Positions 10,648 to 27,121 of a DNA stretch of 40,317 bases are shown here, piece by piece. Where the stretch lies: positions 1 to 40,317 of IMG/VR virus record IMGVR_UViG_3300024346_000180; one strand, 5' to 3'. This stretch comes from a virus. The notes under the pieces are model-generated. The model had not been told where the DNA came from, did not search any database, and worked only from the letters and a program-made list of their open reading frames with translations. Both the position numbers and the translations under genes were made by a program. How positions within the stretch are numbered: the stretch's first letter is position 1; every line of letters starts with the position of its first letter.

Positions 10648-11385
10648 CTATCTTTTTGAGCTTCCTGTAGTACCTGATGTTCCTAAACTTAAACCTTGGT
10701 TATACGCATCGTTGTATAGATTAATTAAATCTTCTACAATAGGATCTCTATGATTTTGTTTTAATGATATTGCCTCTAAACTTTTAATTTTTTTAGATGC
10801 TGAATATAAGAATTTAAATCCTGAATCGCGCTTTTGTTTTAAGTCTACCTGATTATCATCACCACAAATGATCATTTTTGATCCTTTACCAATACGAGTA
10901 ACAATCATTTCCATTTGTTCGTGAGTAACGTTTTGAGCTTCATCTACAATTACTATAGAATTTACAAATGTTCTACCTCTCATAAATGAAACAGGTACAA
11001 TTTCTATAAAACCATCGATTATGTATTTTTCTACTTTTTCTTTATCATAAAGTAGATACATGTTTTGGTAGATTGGTTGAACCCAAGGATCCATTTTTTC
11101 TCGTAAATCGCCTGGTAGGAATCCAATTTCTTCTTTAGATACAGTTGGTCGAGTGATAATCACTTTATCAACTTCTTTCATAAACAATTTTTCTAGACCA
11201 ATTTGACAAGCTAATAGCGTTTTACCACTACCAGCAGCCCCTGCTAATAGGGTAACTGTGCTATTTAATATTTTTGCTTTAGCTTGTTTTTGCTCTTCGT
11301 TTAATTGAATTTTAAATTTAATTGGGGTTTTGGGTTTTCTTTTTTCTTTGAAGATATCATCTTCGTGGTGATTTGATTGATTCAT
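10648..11385 (-). CDS. phoH: PhoH-like P-loop ATPase
   Basis: 245 residues. PhoH family ATPases are common in marine phages; the role is unsettled, with RNA helicase or toxin-antitoxin-linked activities proposed for cellular relatives. Walker A is GAAGSGKT (residues 49-56), Walker B IVIVDEAQN (~144-152), preceded by VIITRPTVSKEEIGFLPGDL, which is diagnostic of PhoH. A CGDDNQVD sensor-type segment and QNHRDP follow. The N-terminus is short and polar (HHEDDIFKEKRK). It overlaps the end of the PSD-like gene by 29 nt, so the genes are probably co-translated. The tail GTSGTTGSSKR resembles the Gly-Thr-Ser repeats of the fibres. Confidence 0.92.
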   Translation of the reverse strand: MNQSNHHEDDIFKEKRKPKTPIKFKIQLNEEQKQAKAKILNSTVTLLAGAAGSGKTLLACQIGLEKLFMKEVDKVIITRPTVSKEEIGFLPGDLREKMDPWVQPIYQNMYLLYDKEKVEKYIIDGFIEIVPVSFMRGRTFVNSIVIVDEAQNVTHEQMEMIVTRIGKGSKMIICGDDNQVDLKQKRDSGFKFLYSASKKIKSLEAISLKQNHRDPIVEDLINLYNDAYNQGLSLGTSGTTGSSKR

Positions 11386-12106
11386 TGTTTTTAAAATTAA
11401 TTTTAACTAATTTGTCTAATCCAGCATTCACATGCATGTGGTCATCTAAAACAAGATCAAAATCGAATCGTTCATCCAATGGAAGTACTAAATCGACTTG
11501 TGATCCCCATCTAATTAAAGAAAATCTCTCATTTTGAGCAAATATATCATATTGTGAATTTGTAAAAGGAGCAATTACGTTTACATCCTCATCAGCTATC
11601 TGTATCAGATAATAAGTATAATCTAAAGATAGAGAATAAATTTTATTCCACATACGTTCATTATATTTAAGATAATCCATATTATTAGGATTAATAACTT
11701 TATTTAGAATGTCTTTTTCCACTGCCAACATCGGTTTATTAGTTGATTGTATGGCATCTAGTGGTTTATATGTTAATACACCTCCATAGGGTATGCGATT
11801 GATATGAACATCGTAAAATGACATAAATATACCGATAACTAACGATGGTTTATTGTAGTCCTCATCGCCTACTACATCCTGAAGGGTATAATTCATACCC
11901 TTAATTTCAACTATAGGTTCCTTAGGATCCTTAATGAATTTTTGGTATAGAATAGTCCCATCAGCTGGTGAGTAGAAATGTTCATAATCGATATAATGTG
12001 GGCGTATTGGATCTCTAAAGAAAAATGTATTAGATAATTCACTAACAGGCATTTTTTGAAGTTGTTTAACTTCACCATTTAGCCATTCTGTTAAAGTTTG
12101 AGCCAT
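11357..12106 (-). CDS. Phosphatidylserine decarboxylase-like proenzyme
   Basis: 249 residues. PSDs are made as proenzymes that cut themselves at a Gly-Ser bond to give a pyruvoyl group, then convert phosphatidylserine to phosphatidylethanolamine. Visible motifs: FYSPADGTIL (Asp49), IFMSFYDVHINRIPYGG (Asp99, His101), YNER (148-151) and RFSLIRWGSQVDLVLPL with Gly201-Ser202 where PSDs have LGST. Asp49, His101 and Ser202 match the known autoprocessing triad. There is no membrane helix, so the protein is probably soluble or peripheral. Its ATG overlaps the stop of the amidinotransferase-like gene by one nucleotide, indicating coupled production. The LGST-to-RWGS change and the phage setting leave open a non-lipid amino-acid substrate, as known for some PSD relatives. 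Confidence 0.83.
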   Translation of the reverse strand: MAQTLTEWLNGEVKQLQKMPVSELSNTFFFRDPIRPHYIDYEHFYSPADGTILYQKFIKDPKEPIVEIKGMNYTLQDVVGDEDYNKPSLVIGIFMSFYDVHINRIPYGGVLTYKPLDAIQSTNKPMLAVEKDILNKVINPNNMDYLKYNERMWNKIYSLSLDYTYYLIQIADEDVNVIAPFTNSQYDIFAQNERFSLIRWGSQVDLVLPLDERFDFDLVLDDHMHVNAGLDKLVKINFKNNESIKSPRR

Positions 12107-13020
12107 TATAGTAAAGTTTTGTAATGATCAACTCTATTCAAATGCATCATCATACAAGATAACATAGCACCTGATTTCATAAATTCTGATAGATTGAATA
12201 TAACAGGTTCCATTCCAGCATCACCACAAATTTTTTCTAGTGTTTCTAGTTTGTGTTTTTCACCTGCATAATATTCATGTGTTTTTTTCATTTCTGAAAT
12301 GTTTGAAGCACATAAAATCATGTTACCCATTCTTACTGAGTTTGTTAATCCACCCAAAGCATCTTCAGCATCAATATCAATAATTTCAGTATGTTTTTCT
12401 AACATTTTAATTTCATCTTCCTCGTACAATTCAGTACAAATTAATGTTTGATCTTGATTTAATGCAAATACAGAACAATCTAAATGATATAAATACTCAT
12501 CAACCATTGCGAGCTTGATAATATTCATACCATAATTTTCTTCCATCCATTCATACGTTTTAATATCTGAACGGATATCATAACCACCAATATAAACATT
12601 ATCGTAAAGAAATTTTAAATCAGCTTCGCCTTCCCATTTGTATGGAGAGATTGCTGTTTTATAACCCATTTGGTTAAAGAATTTTTCACCTACATGTTCT
12701 TCGCCTTTACGAGGATCCGAGGTGAAGTTCGATAAAATAATGTGGTTTTCATCCGTAATATGTGGTAAATAAATACCTAAATTGGCAACGTACACCTGAT
12801 CTTGGAAGTTGCCTTCTGATGGTAGTAAATACGTTAAAGAACCGCCGGCAACAAAGTTATACAAATCCATAAATTGTTTGTAAGCTTTAGGGCGATTAAT
12901 TGCTAATTCTTCATTTGTTAATTCTTGCATCCAAATGTTATTAGGGTCTGCAGTAGACAAAGAGAATGGGAAATTCATTACATAACTCTGTAAAGGTAAC
13001 TGACTTGGGGTTTCTTTCAT
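12106..13020 (-). CDS. Amidinotransferase / DDAH-superfamily enzyme
   Basis: 304 residues. The guanidino-group modifying superfamily (arginine deiminase, DDAH, glycine amidinotransferase, CtlX-type citrulline hydrolase) uses a Cys-His-Glu/Asp centre on arginine-like substrates. Visible here: VYVANLGIYLPH (~77-87), FTSDPRKGEEH (99-109), WEGEADLKFLYDNVYIGG (129-146) equal to the EGGD motif, YHLDCSVF (His179, Asp181), and KSGAMLSCMMMHLNR with Cys289 at the C-terminal nucleophile position. All catalytic positions appear intact. It is the first gene after the capsid terminator and overlaps the PSD-like gene by one nucleotide. The exact reaction (hydrolase or transferase) cannot be decided from sequence alone. 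Confidence 0.8.
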   Translation of the reverse strand: MKETPSQLPLQSYVMNFPFSLSTADPNNIWMQELTNEELAINRPKAYKQFMDLYNFVAGGSLTYLLPSEGNFQDQVYVANLGIYLPHITDENHIILSNFTSDPRKGEEHVGEKFFNQMGYKTAISPYKWEGEADLKFLYDNVYIGGYDIRSDIKTYEWMEENYGMNIIKLAMVDEYLYHLDCSVFALNQDQTLICTELYEEDEIKMLEKHTEIIDIDAEDALGGLTNSVRMGNMILCASNISEMKKTHEYYAGEKHKLETLEKICGDAGMEPVIFNLSEFMKSGAMLSCMMMHLNRVDHYKTLL

Positions 13021-13082: not shown

Positions 13083-13116
13083 TAAAAAAAAAAGCCCCGC
13101 TTTCGCGGGGCTTCTT
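13083..13116 (-). terminator. Strong rho-independent terminator after capsid gene
   Basis: The coding strand reads AAGCCCCGC, loop GAAA, GCGGGGCTT, followed by about ten T. The 9-bp GC-rich stem with a tetraloop begins 21 nt after the capsid stop and is the clearest transcription end in the window. Confidence 0.95.
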
Positions 13117-13136
13117 CAAGTTATGTTATCTCTAAA

Positions 13137-14912
13137 TTAGATAGTGTTTAATCCACTGATGTAGATCTTACCATAGAATTCAGGACGTAACATTTTCTTA
13201 GCGTAGCGAGTCAATAGACCTTTACGAGGTGTAAAGGTTTCTGGATCGTACACTAATGGAGTCATGATTAATGGAATGTATGGAGCAAACACAGCACCTG
13301 TTTCCAAGAATTGTGAACCTCTGTAACCCATTAACATTAAGTTTTCAGTCATGTAAGGGTTTTTGTAAACCTTGTAACGACCGTTAACTGTACCAATTTT
13401 CTGTACACCGAAAGCGTATTCCATTTGGTCAGCTTCGCCATTTGAAGTAGAAGCGAATCCTGGGATTGATTCCAAGATAGTTGCTACTGTAGGAGAAGTA
13501 ACGATGAAGTTAGCACCTCCACGTAAAGTCAACTGATGGATCTTGTTAGATACTTTTTGGATTTTAGTACCTAAAGTTTGGAACCATTGACCTTGTGTGT
13601 TGTAGAAACCTGCAGCTGAAGTAACAAATGAGGTTGTTGATGGATCGTAAACCGTGTTGTTAATAGCTGACCAGTATTCCGTATCAGCAGCTGCATCTTC
13701 GATTAACATATCTAAGATTTCCAAATCAATTTCCATTGAAATGTACTCGCTCATAATGTTAGTCAATTCAGCTTCTGCATCGATGTTTTGGTAAGCAGCT
13801 AAATCTTGTGCAAATTCAGGAGTCCATACTGCTTTCAATTTCTTGGTTTTAGCAGTGATAGGTTGTGATTGCATTCTAACGTTGATCTCAGGGATAACGA
13901 TTTGAGTAGCAGAAGCAGCGTTAGGTACTGAGAAAGAACCTGAAGCTTCAAAATCACCACGACCTGATTGGTTACCACCAATTGCAACAGCTTGGTTGTT
14001 ACCTGAAGTAACGTTGATACCGTCTTGTGAAGTTGATCTTTGGTATGTTACTTGAGCTTCACCATTAACTACTGCTGAATAAGTTTTAGAAGCAGTATAG
14101 AAGAAAGAAATAGTACCGGCTGTGTAATTGTAAGTAGTAAATGCAGATAATAGGTTTGCAGGATTTGCAACACCACCATCCCCAGAACCAGAAGCAACAA
14201 ATCCACGAACTGCATCTTGATCAAATGCAGGTAAGAATGAAGCAGAAATAGTTAATTTTGTAATTTGACCATCAGCTGCAGAAGCAGAGTAATCAGAATC
14301 AAAATTTACTTCAGCCCATGTTGCATCTATAAGAGCAGCAGCACTACCTGTAGTGATAGGAGAAGCACCACCGTTTGCAGATGAAGTAACTCTAAATAAT
14401 GAACTTGAGAAGTTGTTGGTAGCATAAGTGAAACGACCTTCTGGTCCACCATATAAACCACCTACAGCAGCTGGAGTAGAGAATGGGAATTGAGAAGATG
14501 TATCGCGATTACCATACAATGATTGACCTGCAGTAAATGGAGTCTTAGAGTTACCATATTGGAAATCTAAGAAGAACACTAGTCCTGAAGGCATGTTCAT
14601 AGGTTGAACTGAAACGAATTCTTTAGCTACGATAGTACCGAATACTTTTCTTACTAAAGGCAATGCAATACCAGCCCAGTTCTCACCTTGTCCACCTGAA
14701 GTGAATGAAGAGTTTGAAGAGATTTGGTTTGATTCAGTTACTAATTGTTTAGCTTGATTTTCTAACATGATTGACATGTTATTTTTATCATGCTCGGTTA
14801 AGCCCTCTAAAAGGCCTGTTTTAGCCCATTTTCCGGCTAATTTAGCAGCATCAGATTGGAGATTTTTCCAAGATCCAGCTGCCGATTCGAGTAATTGATT
14901 TACTTGTGACAT
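13137..14912 (-). CDS. Major capsid protein, T4 gp23-like
   Basis: 591 residues (T4 gp23 is 521). The N-terminal ~60 residues are a helical arm ending at LVTE60, a likely prohead-protease site (T4 cuts gp23 after a Glu at residue 65). Then come SFTSGGQGENWAG (69-81), ALPLVRKVFGTIVAKEFVSVQPM (83-105) and GLVFFLDFQYGNSKTPF, the conserved gp23 start of the HK97-type fold. Residues ~150-360 hold a Ser/Ala/Gly-rich insertion, probably a surface domain. The C-terminal half (TKKLKAVWTPEFAQDLAAYQNIDAEAEL...) is the usual gp23 region, ending with VYKNPYMTENLMLMGYRGS and YAKKMLRPEFYGKIYISGL. It follows scaffold and protease genes as in T4 and ends at a strong terminator, fitting high expression. Confidence 0.95.
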   Translation of the reverse strand: MSQVNQLLESAAGSWKNLQSDAAKLAGKWAKTGLLEGLTEHDKNNMSIMLENQAKQLVTESNQISSNSSFTSGGQGENWAGIALPLVRKVFGTIVAKEFVSVQPMNMPSGLVFFLDFQYGNSKTPFTAGQSLYGNRDTSSQFPFSTPAAVGGLYGGPEGRFTYATNNFSSSLFRVTSSANGGASPITTGSAAALIDATWAEVNFDSDYSASAADGQITKLTISASFLPAFDQDAVRGFVASGSGDGGVANPANLLSAFTTYNYTAGTISFFYTASKTYSAVVNGEAQVTYQRSTSQDGINVTSGNNQAVAIGGNQSGRGDFEASGSFSVPNAASATQIVIPEINVRMQSQPITAKTKKLKAVWTPEFAQDLAAYQNIDAEAELTNIMSEYISMEIDLEILDMLIEDAAADTEYWSAINNTVYDPSTTSFVTSAAGFYNTQGQWFQTLGTKIQKVSNKIHQLTLRGGANFIVTSPTVATILESIPGFASTSNGEADQMEYAFGVQKIGTVNGRYKVYKNPYMTENLMLMGYRGSQFLETGAVFAPYIPLIMTPLVYDPETFTPRKGLLTRYAKKMLRPEFYGKIYISGLNTI

Positions 14913-14945: not shown

Positions 14946-16112
14946 TTATTTTTTTAAACCTGCCAATGTTTGCCATCTAGCAAATTGGTCGTTTATTTCA
15001 AGAATTGGTTTCTTTGTTGGAGCAATACCTGCTACTTTAGAAGCACCACCAATCATTGATTCGTTAACAGATGATTTCTTTTCATTTAATCCTTCTGATA
15101 ATGTTTCAAATACTAATTTAGCTTCTTTAGTAGTAGCTGCTTTGTCAAATGCTGCCAATACTTTTACTTTTTGTGATTCGGTTAAGTTTTTAGCTCTAAA
15201 GATTTTGTTAGTGTAAAGTAATTTAGCATTTAACAAATTAACTTCGTTTAGATCAGTTTTAACGGTTTCGATAGCAGCGTAAGCTTCTTCAAGTTTAGCT
15301 TCCATTTCTTTTAGCTTTTTCTTGTAGTCTTCTACACCTTCTTCTTCAGCAGTGTCTTTTTTGTCACCACGTTTAGCAGCAGGTACGTCGCCTTTGTTAC
15401 CACCGTACTTTTTACGTTCGTCTAATCCATTCATTAATTCATCAATACTAATTTCTTCTTCTTCAGATTCCATTTCTTCACCTTCTCCGCCTTCCATTTC
15501 GCCTTCTAGTTCCCCAGCGGCTACCATGTCAGCGATAACACCTTCGATGAATGATTTAAGATCATCTTCAGACATGTTTTCAAGATCGATTTCTTCTTCT
15601 TCTCCCATTTCCTCTTCTTCAGCTTCAGCAACGTTACCATGAGCGTTGTTGTCTGAAGGATATTTGGGATCGTTGATTAAATCTTCACCTTCCATCATTT
15701 CTTCTTTTTCACCTTCTTCCATGTCATCTAATTCTCTAAGAAGTTCATCTAAGTCCATTTCATCCATGTCTTTAGCTTCATCCATGTCATAAGTTTCTTC
15801 CATTTCTTTAGTACCTAATTTTTTCATGCCCATTTGGCCTTCGTACCCTTTTCTGTGGTTAGCTTCATCCATTTCTGTAGTTTCGTCCATGTCGAAATTT
15901 TCTTTCATGTCCTTCTCTTTCATTTCATCCATCTCTTTAGCTTCATCCATATCATCCATATCATCCATTTCAGAAAGCTTTGCAGCTAACTTTTCTTTCA
16001 AATAAGGTGTGAATGCTTCTTCAAGAGCGGCTTTTGCGTTTGCTATAGCAGTTTCTTTAACAGCTTTAGCATCGGCGATTGCTTCTTTAAGCAAATCTCT
16101 GTTGTTTGTCAT
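14946..16112 (-). CDS. Prohead scaffold (core) protein, T4 gp22-like
   Basis: 388 residues, extremely acidic. Residues 1-45 are an Ala-rich helix (LLKEAIADAKAVKETAIANAKA). Residues ~48-240 are a low-complexity Met/Asp/Glu region with repeated DMDEA and EMDE units. Residues ~262-300 are a coiled coil. The C-terminal part (KLLYTNKIFRAKNLTESQKV, then EAKLVFETLSEGLNEKK) and final DQFARWQTLAGL are the conserved parts of gp22-type scaffolds. Scaffold proteins fill the prohead core and are degraded by gp21; LSE, LNE and VNE sites near residues 340-355 fit that. It lies between protease and capsid genes as in T4. A 228-nt leader with inverted repeats precedes it. Confidence 0.88.
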   Translation of the reverse strand: MTNNRDLLKEAIADAKAVKETAIANAKAALEEAFTPYLKEKLAAKLSEMDDMDDMDEAKEMDEMKEKDMKENFDMDETTEMDEANHRKGYEGQMGMKKLGTKEMEETYDMDEAKDMDEMDLDELLRELDDMEEGEKEEMMEGEDLINDPKYPSDNNAHGNVAEAEEEEMGEEEEIDLENMSEDDLKSFIEGVIADMVAAGELEGEMEGGEGEEMESEEEEISIDELMNGLDERKKYGGNKGDVPAAKRGDKKDTAEEEGVEDYKKKLKEMEAKLEEAYAAIETVKTDLNEVNLLNAKLLYTNKIFRAKNLTESQKVKVLAAFDKAATTKEAKLVFETLSEGLNEKKSSVNESMIGGASKVAGIAPTKKPILEINDQFARWQTLAGLKK

Positions 16113-25574: not shown

Positions 25575-26966
25575 TTAGTTAAATATATCTCCATGAATAT
25601 TATCCCATTCACAAACATACGGAAGATTTGTTGCTTTTCCAAATGTATTTAAAAATGCTTCAGCAACATAAATTGCTTGTGCTCCTGATACTGTAATGCC
25701 ACGTGCTGATAAAGCATCGCCTACAAAGTGTACGTTTGGATAATCAGTTAATGCTAGGTTAGAATAATCTACTTTTACCTCAGGTGAAAGATATTTTACT
25801 TCAGGAATATAAATACCCCAATCATCTCCTAATGTTGGGAATACTTTTTTCATATCATCAATAAAATCAACAATGTATTCAAAAAATCCATCAAACGCTT
25901 CCATTACTCCTAATAATTGTAACCAACTAATTTGAGTTGCACTTACATCCTTACCTTCAGATGTAGTTGATGGTTGACGAGAAGGACTATAATATAAACC
26001 AGTACCATTTGATTGTATTTTATTTACTACATCACGTGACCAAGTAAATGGATCTTCAATACCATTAATTTCCATTAAAATACCAAAATTGGTCATTCCG
26101 TTTAGGTATTTTGGATCTTTTTTAGCGTGGCCATTGTAACTATGATCACCATATGTTTCCTCTACAGCAACATAAGCGGCATTATTGTTTGTACAGAATG
26201 AGCGTAGTGAAACACCTTTATCGTCAAATTTTCTATATAACTTAAAGTCGTATGAAATATCGATTAGTTTTTGGAAGTGTTCTTGTGGGGCTTCGAATCG
26301 AACTCCAATTTGAACTGATTTAGGTTCGTCTGGTAGTTCGTACTGGTTGGCTAGTTGTTGAGCAAAATCAATTCCTGATTTACCTACTGCAAAAATAAGT
26401 TCATCATAGAATATCCCATCATTATCCATAGTTGCAAATTCGGGTTTAATTGAATGCATTACAACCTCGTTGTGTCTAAAATTGATGCTGGTTACTTTAG
26501 TTTCCCAATGGAATTGTACTCCTTTAGATACTAAATAATCGTACCAATTTTTAGCAATCTCAGATAGATAATCTGTACCTACATGCCATACAGGAAACAA
26601 TCGTAAACCAAAGTATGGTTTAATAAATTCTGGTTCTGTATCTGGATTTGAACATTGTACCTCCTCTGGTTTAGGATGGAAACGTTTGAAATTAGTGATG
26701 ACTTGATCCATCAATTCCATTGCTTTTTCCTCACCACAATACTTGGATAACTGACCACCAATAGCTGTATGGTATGTTAATTTACCATCACTCCAACCTC
26801 CAGCACCTAAAAAACCTGTCATTACCTCTTCAGGTAATCTTTTATAAGGGTCTTTACCCATATCAATAATGGTAATTAAACTACCATCGTATCCATTGTC
26901 TACTAGTTTTGTAGCTGCGTTTACACCTGCTACTCCTGCACCAACAATTACAATTTTCTTACTCAT
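25575..26966 (-). CDS. FAD-dependent dehydrogenase (COG2509-like)
   Basis: 463 residues from ATG 26966 (MSKKIVIVGAG...). Longer starts (MTYIK at 26999; 27065) would add a non-conserved leader, the latter crossing the terminator. The Rossmann GAGVAG (9-14) binds FAD ADP. EEVMTGFLGAGGWSDGKLTY follows, then FAVGKSGIDFAQQL and IGVRFEAPQEHF, SLRSFCTNNNAAYVAVEE and, at the C-terminus, FVGDALSARGITVSGAQAIY. This order fits the uncharacterised FAD-dependent dehydrogenases of COG2509 ('GRSG..w', 'diGvRvE.P', 'RTFC..p.G.v', 'GD..g..rGi..A...G'). It probably oxidises or reduces a small molecule in the cytoplasm. It follows a terminator, so transcription starts nearby, and leads the cupin/NTPase cassette. 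Confidence 0.8.
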   Translation of the reverse strand: MSKKIVIVGAGVAGVNAATKLVDNGYDGSLITIIDMGKDPYKRLPEEVMTGFLGAGGWSDGKLTYHTAIGGQLSKYCGEEKAMELMDQVITNFKRFHPKPEEVQCSNPDTEPEFIKPYFGLRLFPVWHVGTDYLSEIAKNWYDYLVSKGVQFHWETKVTSINFRHNEVVMHSIKPEFATMDNDGIFYDELIFAVGKSGIDFAQQLANQYELPDEPKSVQIGVRFEAPQEHFQKLIDISYDFKLYRKFDDKGVSLRSFCTNNNAAYVAVEETYGDHSYNGHAKKDPKYLNGMTNFGILMEINGIEDPFTWSRDVVNKIQSNGTGLYYSPSRQPSTTSEGKDVSATQISWLQLLGVMEAFDGFFEYIVDFIDDMKKVFPTLGDDWGIYIPEVKYLSPEVKVDYSNLALTDYPNVHFVGDALSARGITVSGAQAIYVAEAFLNTFGKATNLPYVCEWDNIHGDIFN

Positions 26967-27022
26967 TTCCAGTTTGTTTAATGCTTTAATATACGTCATA
27001 TCTTTTAATTTTCCAAGTTTAA

Positions 27023-27056
27023 ATAAAAAAAGTAGCCCACTTTTTAAGGTGGGCCA
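27023..27056 (-). terminator. Rho-independent terminator before metabolic cassette
   Basis: The coding strand reads GTGGCCCACCTT, loop, AAGTGGGC then TACTTTTTTTATTT. A 6-bp GC-rich stem extended by G-T and A-T pairs is followed by a T-tract, 66 nt after the stop at 27122. Confidence 0.9.
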
Positions 27057-27121
27057 CAGCTCCAATATTATATATCCTTGCGGACGAGCGGCTATGAATC
27101 GCTCTAAATGTTATTTAAATA

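Follow-up and report, generated by a model that had tools for sequence, protein, structure and literature searches.

The arginine dihydrolases ArgZ and AgrE of the cyanobacterial ornithine-ammonia cycle (PDB 6jv0, 6juz, 6lrf) belong to the guanidino-modifying enzyme (GME) superfamily. The phosphatidylserine and archaetidylserine decarboxylases (PSD; PF02666; E. coli PSD, PDB 6l06 and 7cnw) share a fold and the PADG, D-x-H and GS self-cleavage motifs. The family includes PsiD (8x4q), a PSD-derived fungal L-tryptophan decarboxylase that acts on a free amino acid. Conversion of arginine through ornithine to putrescine has precedents in viruses, as Klosneuvirus encodes an arginase and a PLP-type ODC, and pelagiphages carry a pyruvoyl ADC/ODC derived from SpeD (PMC9992855). 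In the same survey of viral polyamine enzymes, arginases were absent from phages, a single phage encoded two or more of the enzymes, and neither PSD nor arginine dihydrolase is mentioned in the text (PMC9992855). Finally, Fletchervirus genomes carry genes annotated as two unrelated functions, 'phosphatidylserine decarboxylase' and 'amidinotransferase' (for example gp085 and gp044 of NCTC12673). The enzyme families are already known; a literature search of partial coverage returned no paper that treats a PSD-GME pair as a unit, or describes its spread or its link to an exporter.

We identified adjacent genes of these two families in a viral sequence of 40,317 nucleotides (IMG/VR record IMGVR_UViG_3300024346_000180, positions 1 to 40,317), hereafter the window. 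The locus contains the following features.

10648..11385, minus strand: PhoH-like ATPase (PF02562, 8e-64), flank of the cassette, given for context and outside the proposed pathway
11357..12106, minus strand: PSD-family pyruvoyl decarboxylase paralog, soluble, 249 aa (PF02666; phrog_12670)
12106..13020, minus strand: GME-superfamily enzyme of the ArgZ/AgrE type, a predicted arginine dihydrolase, 304 aa (by profile, fold and residue conservation; phrog_12759)
13088..13117, minus strand: terminator-like hairpin with a T run, between the capsid gene and the enzyme pair
13137..14912, minus strand: major capsid protein gp23 (Gp23, 6e-77), upstream border of the insertion site, given for context

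The GME and PSD ORFs overlap by one nucleotide within the sequence TAATG. The last 29 nt of the PSD ORF are also the first of the PhoH ORF, which makes GME, PSD and PhoH overlap serially. About one terminator-like hairpin of this kind is expected by chance in the region, and its position therefore outweighs its score. A first-pass annotation of this DNA had described two enzyme genes of the PSD and guanidino-modifying superfamilies, with intact catalytic residues and coupled by a single nucleotide, between a capsid terminator and phoH. Each of these points holds: the PSD matches PF02666, the GME is recognized through its NCBIfam and PDB ArgZ matches, and the catalytic residues that the annotation had named (Asp49, His101 and Ser202; Cys289 and His179) are present in 82 of 82 distinct phage proteins for each enzyme. 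Just upstream of the capsid gene (14946-16112, minus strand) is a very acidic 388-aa protein with repeated DMDE/MDEA motifs and no Pfam match, which is probably the prohead scaffold.

The GME ORF has no Pfam match at E≤1, amidinotransferase families included. Against NCBIfam it matches dimethylargininase and arginine dihydrolase models at 1e-20 to 1e-18, all below their cutoffs (the curated arginine dihydrolase equivalog scores 69.9 bits where the cutoff is 450). These matches are hydrolases plus one unrelated weak hit, with no amidinotransferase among them. A PDB sequence search finds ArgZ (Sll1336) at 2e-11, the relatives being ArgZ and AgrE (Alr4995), and a profile built from 36 phage and bacterial GME members matches only these two proteins in the PDB at E≤0.01. 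The AlphaFold2 model (pLDDT 91.9) is matched by Foldseek to ArgZ/AgrE at 2e-19 (TM 0.89 by target), to human and Pseudomonas DDAH at 1e-11, and to the amidinotransferases SxtG, HsvA and AGAT at 2e-10 to 1e-8. As ArgZ and AgrE are the nearest relatives by both profile and fold, we place the protein with the ArgZ-type hydrolases and not with the amidinotransferases. The first-pass annotation had named the latter and so chose the wrong sub-family; of the two Pfam matches it proposed to look for, PF02666 was found and the amidinotransferase was not.

Every ArgZ/AgrE residue that can be mapped onto the window protein is retained. Counted along the profile alignment, N28, D74, N80, R104, E130, R150, H179 and D181 correspond to AgrE N22, D65, N71, R90, E118, R139, H168 and D170, and these eight positions together with C289 are invariant in 82 of 82 distinct phage proteins. 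The counterpart of ArgZ N71, N80, is also present in 35 of the 36 aligned members. C289 lies in the expected C-terminal motif and is tentatively equated with ArgZ C264 by position and motif, the local alignment stopping short of it; the ArgZ mutants N71S and C264S are both in the PDB. The predicted catalytic set is Cys289-His179-Glu130 with Asn80, Arg104, Arg150, Asp74 and Asp181. In ADI and DDAH, arginines bind the substrate carboxylate (PMC11659421), and by this token the two conserved arginines of the GME suggest that its substrate is likely an intact amino acid, namely arginine. We consider the protein a probable arginine hydrolase of the ArgZ type, an activity predicted from sequence and model. 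It differs from ArgZ and AgrE in being a stand-alone protein of 304 aa, about 20% identical, that lacks the ornithine cyclodeaminase domain and has a PSD paralog as its constant partner.

The PSD ORF matches PF02666 at 3.8e-23 (82.6 bits, above the cutoff of 22). However, all NCBIfam PSD and ASD equivalogs score below their cutoffs, the best at 67.7 against 183. The PADG and D-x-H motifs and the Gly201-Ser202 cleavage motif are present, and Asp49, His101 and Ser202 are the conserved residues. The model is of moderate confidence (pLDDT 78), and its credible matches in the PDB are limited to E. coli PSD and, second best, PsiD, which is longer, acts on an aromatic substrate and is of very low identity to the window protein. 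A search of plasmids returned only ordinary PSDs, about 29% identical.

Several features separate the cassette PSDs from canonical enzymes. A hydropathy scan shows no membrane-associating hydrophobic segment (Kyte-Doolittle, 19-residue mean): the window protein reaches a maximum of 0.95 and all 184 cassette PSDs stay at or below 1.41, whereas the canonical PSDs of the same host genomes reach about 1.6 or more in 11 of 17 cases. An insert of roughly 30 residues follows the D-x-H motif. In addition, the strand before the cleavage site carries Asp172 where canonical enzymes have a small residue. Asp172 is found in 33 of 33 aligned members and 82 of 82 phage proteins, and is common to all phage groups. 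Other acidic positions vary, Asp174 being Gln in Campylobacter phages and Asp99 being Ser in DAC16. Finally, 17 of 22 bacterial genomes that carry the pair encode a second, canonical PSD with a far stronger family match (1e-39 to 1e-62). The coexisting canonical enzyme, the lack of a membrane helix and the invariant Asp172 together make a role on membrane lipid unlikely, and from the sequences it is highly probable that the paralog acts on something other than phosphatidylserine. A soluble, positively charged substrate would be the natural reading of these features.

Related metagenomic phages, to which the first-pass annotation had pointed for the same gene pair, do carry it. The order MCP-GME-PSD-PhoH is found at well over 100 IMG/VR loci (queries overlap and the loci are not all independent), a recurrence far beyond chance, and the one-nucleotide overlap between the two genes is present in 149 of 154 measured IMG/VR pairs, some of which are the same contig counted twice. 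In total, at least 184 IMG/VR stretches encode the PSD relative. Relatives were also gathered by their capsid protein, with at least 1.2 kb of downstream sequence. Of these 63 loci, 16 carry the complete pair and 47 lack it, and a lone GME or PSD gene occurs at none, in agreement with the exclusive pairing that had been suggested. Three relatives of 163-174 kb without the pair at this position are devoid of PF02666 genes along their whole length. At loci without the pair the gap between the capsid gene and phoH is short or empty, or contains fibre-like genes or an HNH endonuclease, and no functional replacement for the pair was found there.

The both-or-neither pattern and the variable contents of the gap indicate that the pair is an insertion cassette rather than part of a core gene set. 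The earlier view that it lies outside the T4-like core thus stands, but the two genes are not new to such phages, since both were already known in Campylobacter T4-like phages, where they are annotated separately. The capsid-PhoH interval is an insertion hotspot, in which sister phages (L196, L207, L215, L239) encode an HNH endonuclease, fibre-like proteins or small proteins that recur among them. Elsewhere in the structural region of the window is a 496-aa FAD/NAD-dependent dehydrogenase-like protein (25575-27065, minus strand; phrog_12409, Pyr_redox_2), with relatives in Campylobacter phages and in sister phages. Since sister phages encode it whether or not they carry the pair, it is unlinked, and we rejected it as a third enzyme of the pathway.

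The pair occurs in three phage groups: the T4-like group of the window, Bacteroides phages and Campylobacter phages. In Bacteroides phages such as DAC16 and SJC03 the genes are adjacent, GME then PSD, and in DAC16 they are surrounded by replication and nucleotide genes. Two IMG/VR contigs akin to the Bacteroides phages retain both genes with altered spacing or strand. The T4-like Fletchervirus phages of Campylobacter encode homologs of both window proteins, 35-40% identical over nearly the full length, in the same genomes but unlinked, about 43 kb apart in NCTC12673, where the GME gene adjoins primase-helicase and clamp genes. The retention of both genes even where they are unlinked is good evidence that they are needed jointly, and a functional linkage between them is all but certain. 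The NCTC12673 PSD gene lies directly 3' of a phage GroES gene (L161:6694-7768).

When GTDB genomes were scanned with the PSD alignment, 30 loci were identified. One of them (L163), binned in a Flavobacteriales MAG, is on the contig of a sister phage with capsid, GME and PSD genes, which suggests flavobacterial hosts for the phage group of the window. The other 29 are in Verrucomicrobiota, Actinomycetota, Latescibacterota, Sulfurimonas, gammaproteobacteria and Eiseniibacteriota, at 44-54% identity. At 25 of them a complete PSD gene is followed immediately by a complete GME gene. Of the other four, three lie close to the end of their contig, with an incomplete GME gene in place at two, and one, in Latescibacterota (L172), has no GME nearby. 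Phage sequences cluster apart from bacterial ones, with a long Campylobacter branch. The GME and PSD proteins co-evolve, with correlated distance matrices (r=0.93 for the bacterial sequences, Mantel p 0.0005; 0.94 for the whole set).

The bacterial pair is usually found beside an exporter. A MATE exporter is on the same strand at about ten loci, an ABC exporter is upstream of the pair in two Saccharothrix, and an EamA protein is upstream of one Streptoalloteichus copy. In the Verrucomicrobiales the MATE gene is more distant and convergent, and is followed by a solute-binding protein. A role in anti-phage defence was considered and rejected, as neither the pair nor the MATE protein has a PADLOC match.

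We infer the substrate of each enzyme, the order of the steps, the product and the role in infection as follows. The two genes would form a horizontally acquired metabolic module in which the GME, as an ArgZ-type cysteine hydrolase, converts L-arginine to L-ornithine, two NH3 and CO2. The PSD paralog would cleave itself at Gly201/Ser202 to form its pyruvoyl cofactor and decarboxylate a soluble cationic amino acid, most likely the ornithine made by the GME, to putrescine. Bacteria, with an exporter beside the module, probably secrete the amine. The phage modules have no linked exporter, and their product probably remains inside the infected cell, where it could plausibly neutralize DNA or support translation. 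The chemistry would be that of the known viral arginine-ornithine-putrescine modules, which likewise recruited a pyruvoyl decarboxylase from another family, but the window enzymes come from different families at both steps. As one alternative, the first-pass annotation had offered a pathway of two steps acting on an amino acid or an arginine-derived amine, and the analysis supports that suggestion. Taken broadly, it is about an even call that the pair represents an undescribed two-enzyme pathway, widespread in bacteria and present in at least three phage groups, that leads from arginine to an exported amine (putrescine or a signal-like metabolite), and that phages, lacking the exporter, use it to reprogram arginine in infected cells. 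The full route, with ornithine formed by the GME and putrescine by the PSD paralog, is a more tentative proposal, and putrescine as the product is slightly more tentative again. Of its two steps, that of the GME has good support, whereas the substrate of the PSD paralog is more conjectural.

To ask whether the pair supplies putrescine, we inventoried polyamine genes in the host genomes. Among 22 of these, SpeA is present in eight (fragments counted), full OKR decarboxylases in a further four, and NspC in four. The Sulfurimonas-like and gammaproteobacterial carriers have SpeA as well as the pair, and NspC in four genomes. The Verrucomicrobiales carriers, by contrast, have no SpeA, full OKR decarboxylase, SpeD, full NspC or DS-type homospermidine synthase in the gene inventory. 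The idea that carriers lack another putrescine route is not borne out across the 22 genomes, and the inventory gives no support to the pair as a filler of a putrescine gap. A spermidine pathway in the phages was also rejected, as no SpeD was found in those examined. Since arginine synthesis normally passes through ornithine, a step from arginine to ornithine is not obviously needed. Furthermore, the exporter beside the bacterial pair is easier to reconcile with a secreted product than with a polyamine pool inside the cell, which counts against the putrescine mechanism.

The main rival explanation is that the same enzymes act on soluble amino acids to give a different exported amine, for example from arginine through citrulline to N-carbamoylputrescine, or a specialized cationic metabolite outside the polyamine pathway. 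The uncoupling of the pair from known polyamine genes is consistent with this, as is the observation that the family of the exporter varies yet an exporter usually adjoins the bacterial pair. However, N80 is kept at the position mutated in 6juz, which favors a dihydrolase over a deiminase, and no specific alternative product is indicated; we regard this explanation as less likely than the putrescine route. It is improbable that the GME is an amidinotransferase that moves the amidino group of arginine onto an amine acceptor made by the PSD, yielding ornithine and an exported guanidino compound. Such a product would account for the transporter, amidinotransferases belong to the same superfamily and also bind arginine, and the polyamine amidinotransferase HsvA is a Foldseek match at 1.7e-9. 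However, the fold matches to ArgZ and AgrE are stronger by about ten orders of magnitude, the profile finds no other protein in the PDB, and the solved amidinotransferases listed are longer than the GME by about 60 residues.

Synthesis of phosphatidylethanolamine by the PSD, altering the host membrane as the first-pass annotation had envisaged, is very improbable. Despite the clear PF02666 homology, the intact processing residues and the phosphatidylserine decarboxylase annotation of Campylobacter phage records, the protein is soluble, differs from canonical enzymes in a strand of the pocket and is only a paralog of the PSD that the cell itself uses, and a lipid role would leave its strict partnership with a guanidino enzyme and an exporter unexplained. 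Putrescinyl-thymine is known in phage phiW-14, and the pair could in principle supply ornithine or putrescine for a comparable covalent modification of phage DNA. The replication and nucleotide genes around the DAC16 pair and the position of the NCTC12673 GME gene are compatible with such a role, but bacteria have the same pair with exporters and without phage DNA, and we consider it the most remote of these explanations.

If the arginine-to-putrescine mechanism is correct, the lipid-enzyme annotation of PSD-family genes in phages and many bacteria is wrong, and the pair constitutes a new, non-homologous route from arginine to a diamine. Phages would then recruit a complete two-step amine pathway, compared with the one multi-enzyme phage of the earlier survey (PMC9992855). 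The number of IMG/VR stretches with the PSD relative also contrasts with a survey of ocean AMGs, in which psd abundances were negligible (PMC11360552). The bacterial operon and its exporter point to a secreted metabolite that could be searched for in culturable Saccharothrix and Streptoalloteichus.

A second pair in Streptoalloteichus hindustanus (L170:10001-11694) is one in which the PSD is intact and the GME carries Cys289 to Arg, Asn80 to Asp and Arg150 to His. The Streptoalloteichus copy was considered as part of a bleomycin/tallysomycin cluster, and this was rejected since its neighbors are an amidase, an APH kinase, MarR and MFS genes, with no such cluster in the scanned stretch. The second pair adjoins the amidase and the APH-family kinase, and its decarboxylase may have been recruited to another pathway.
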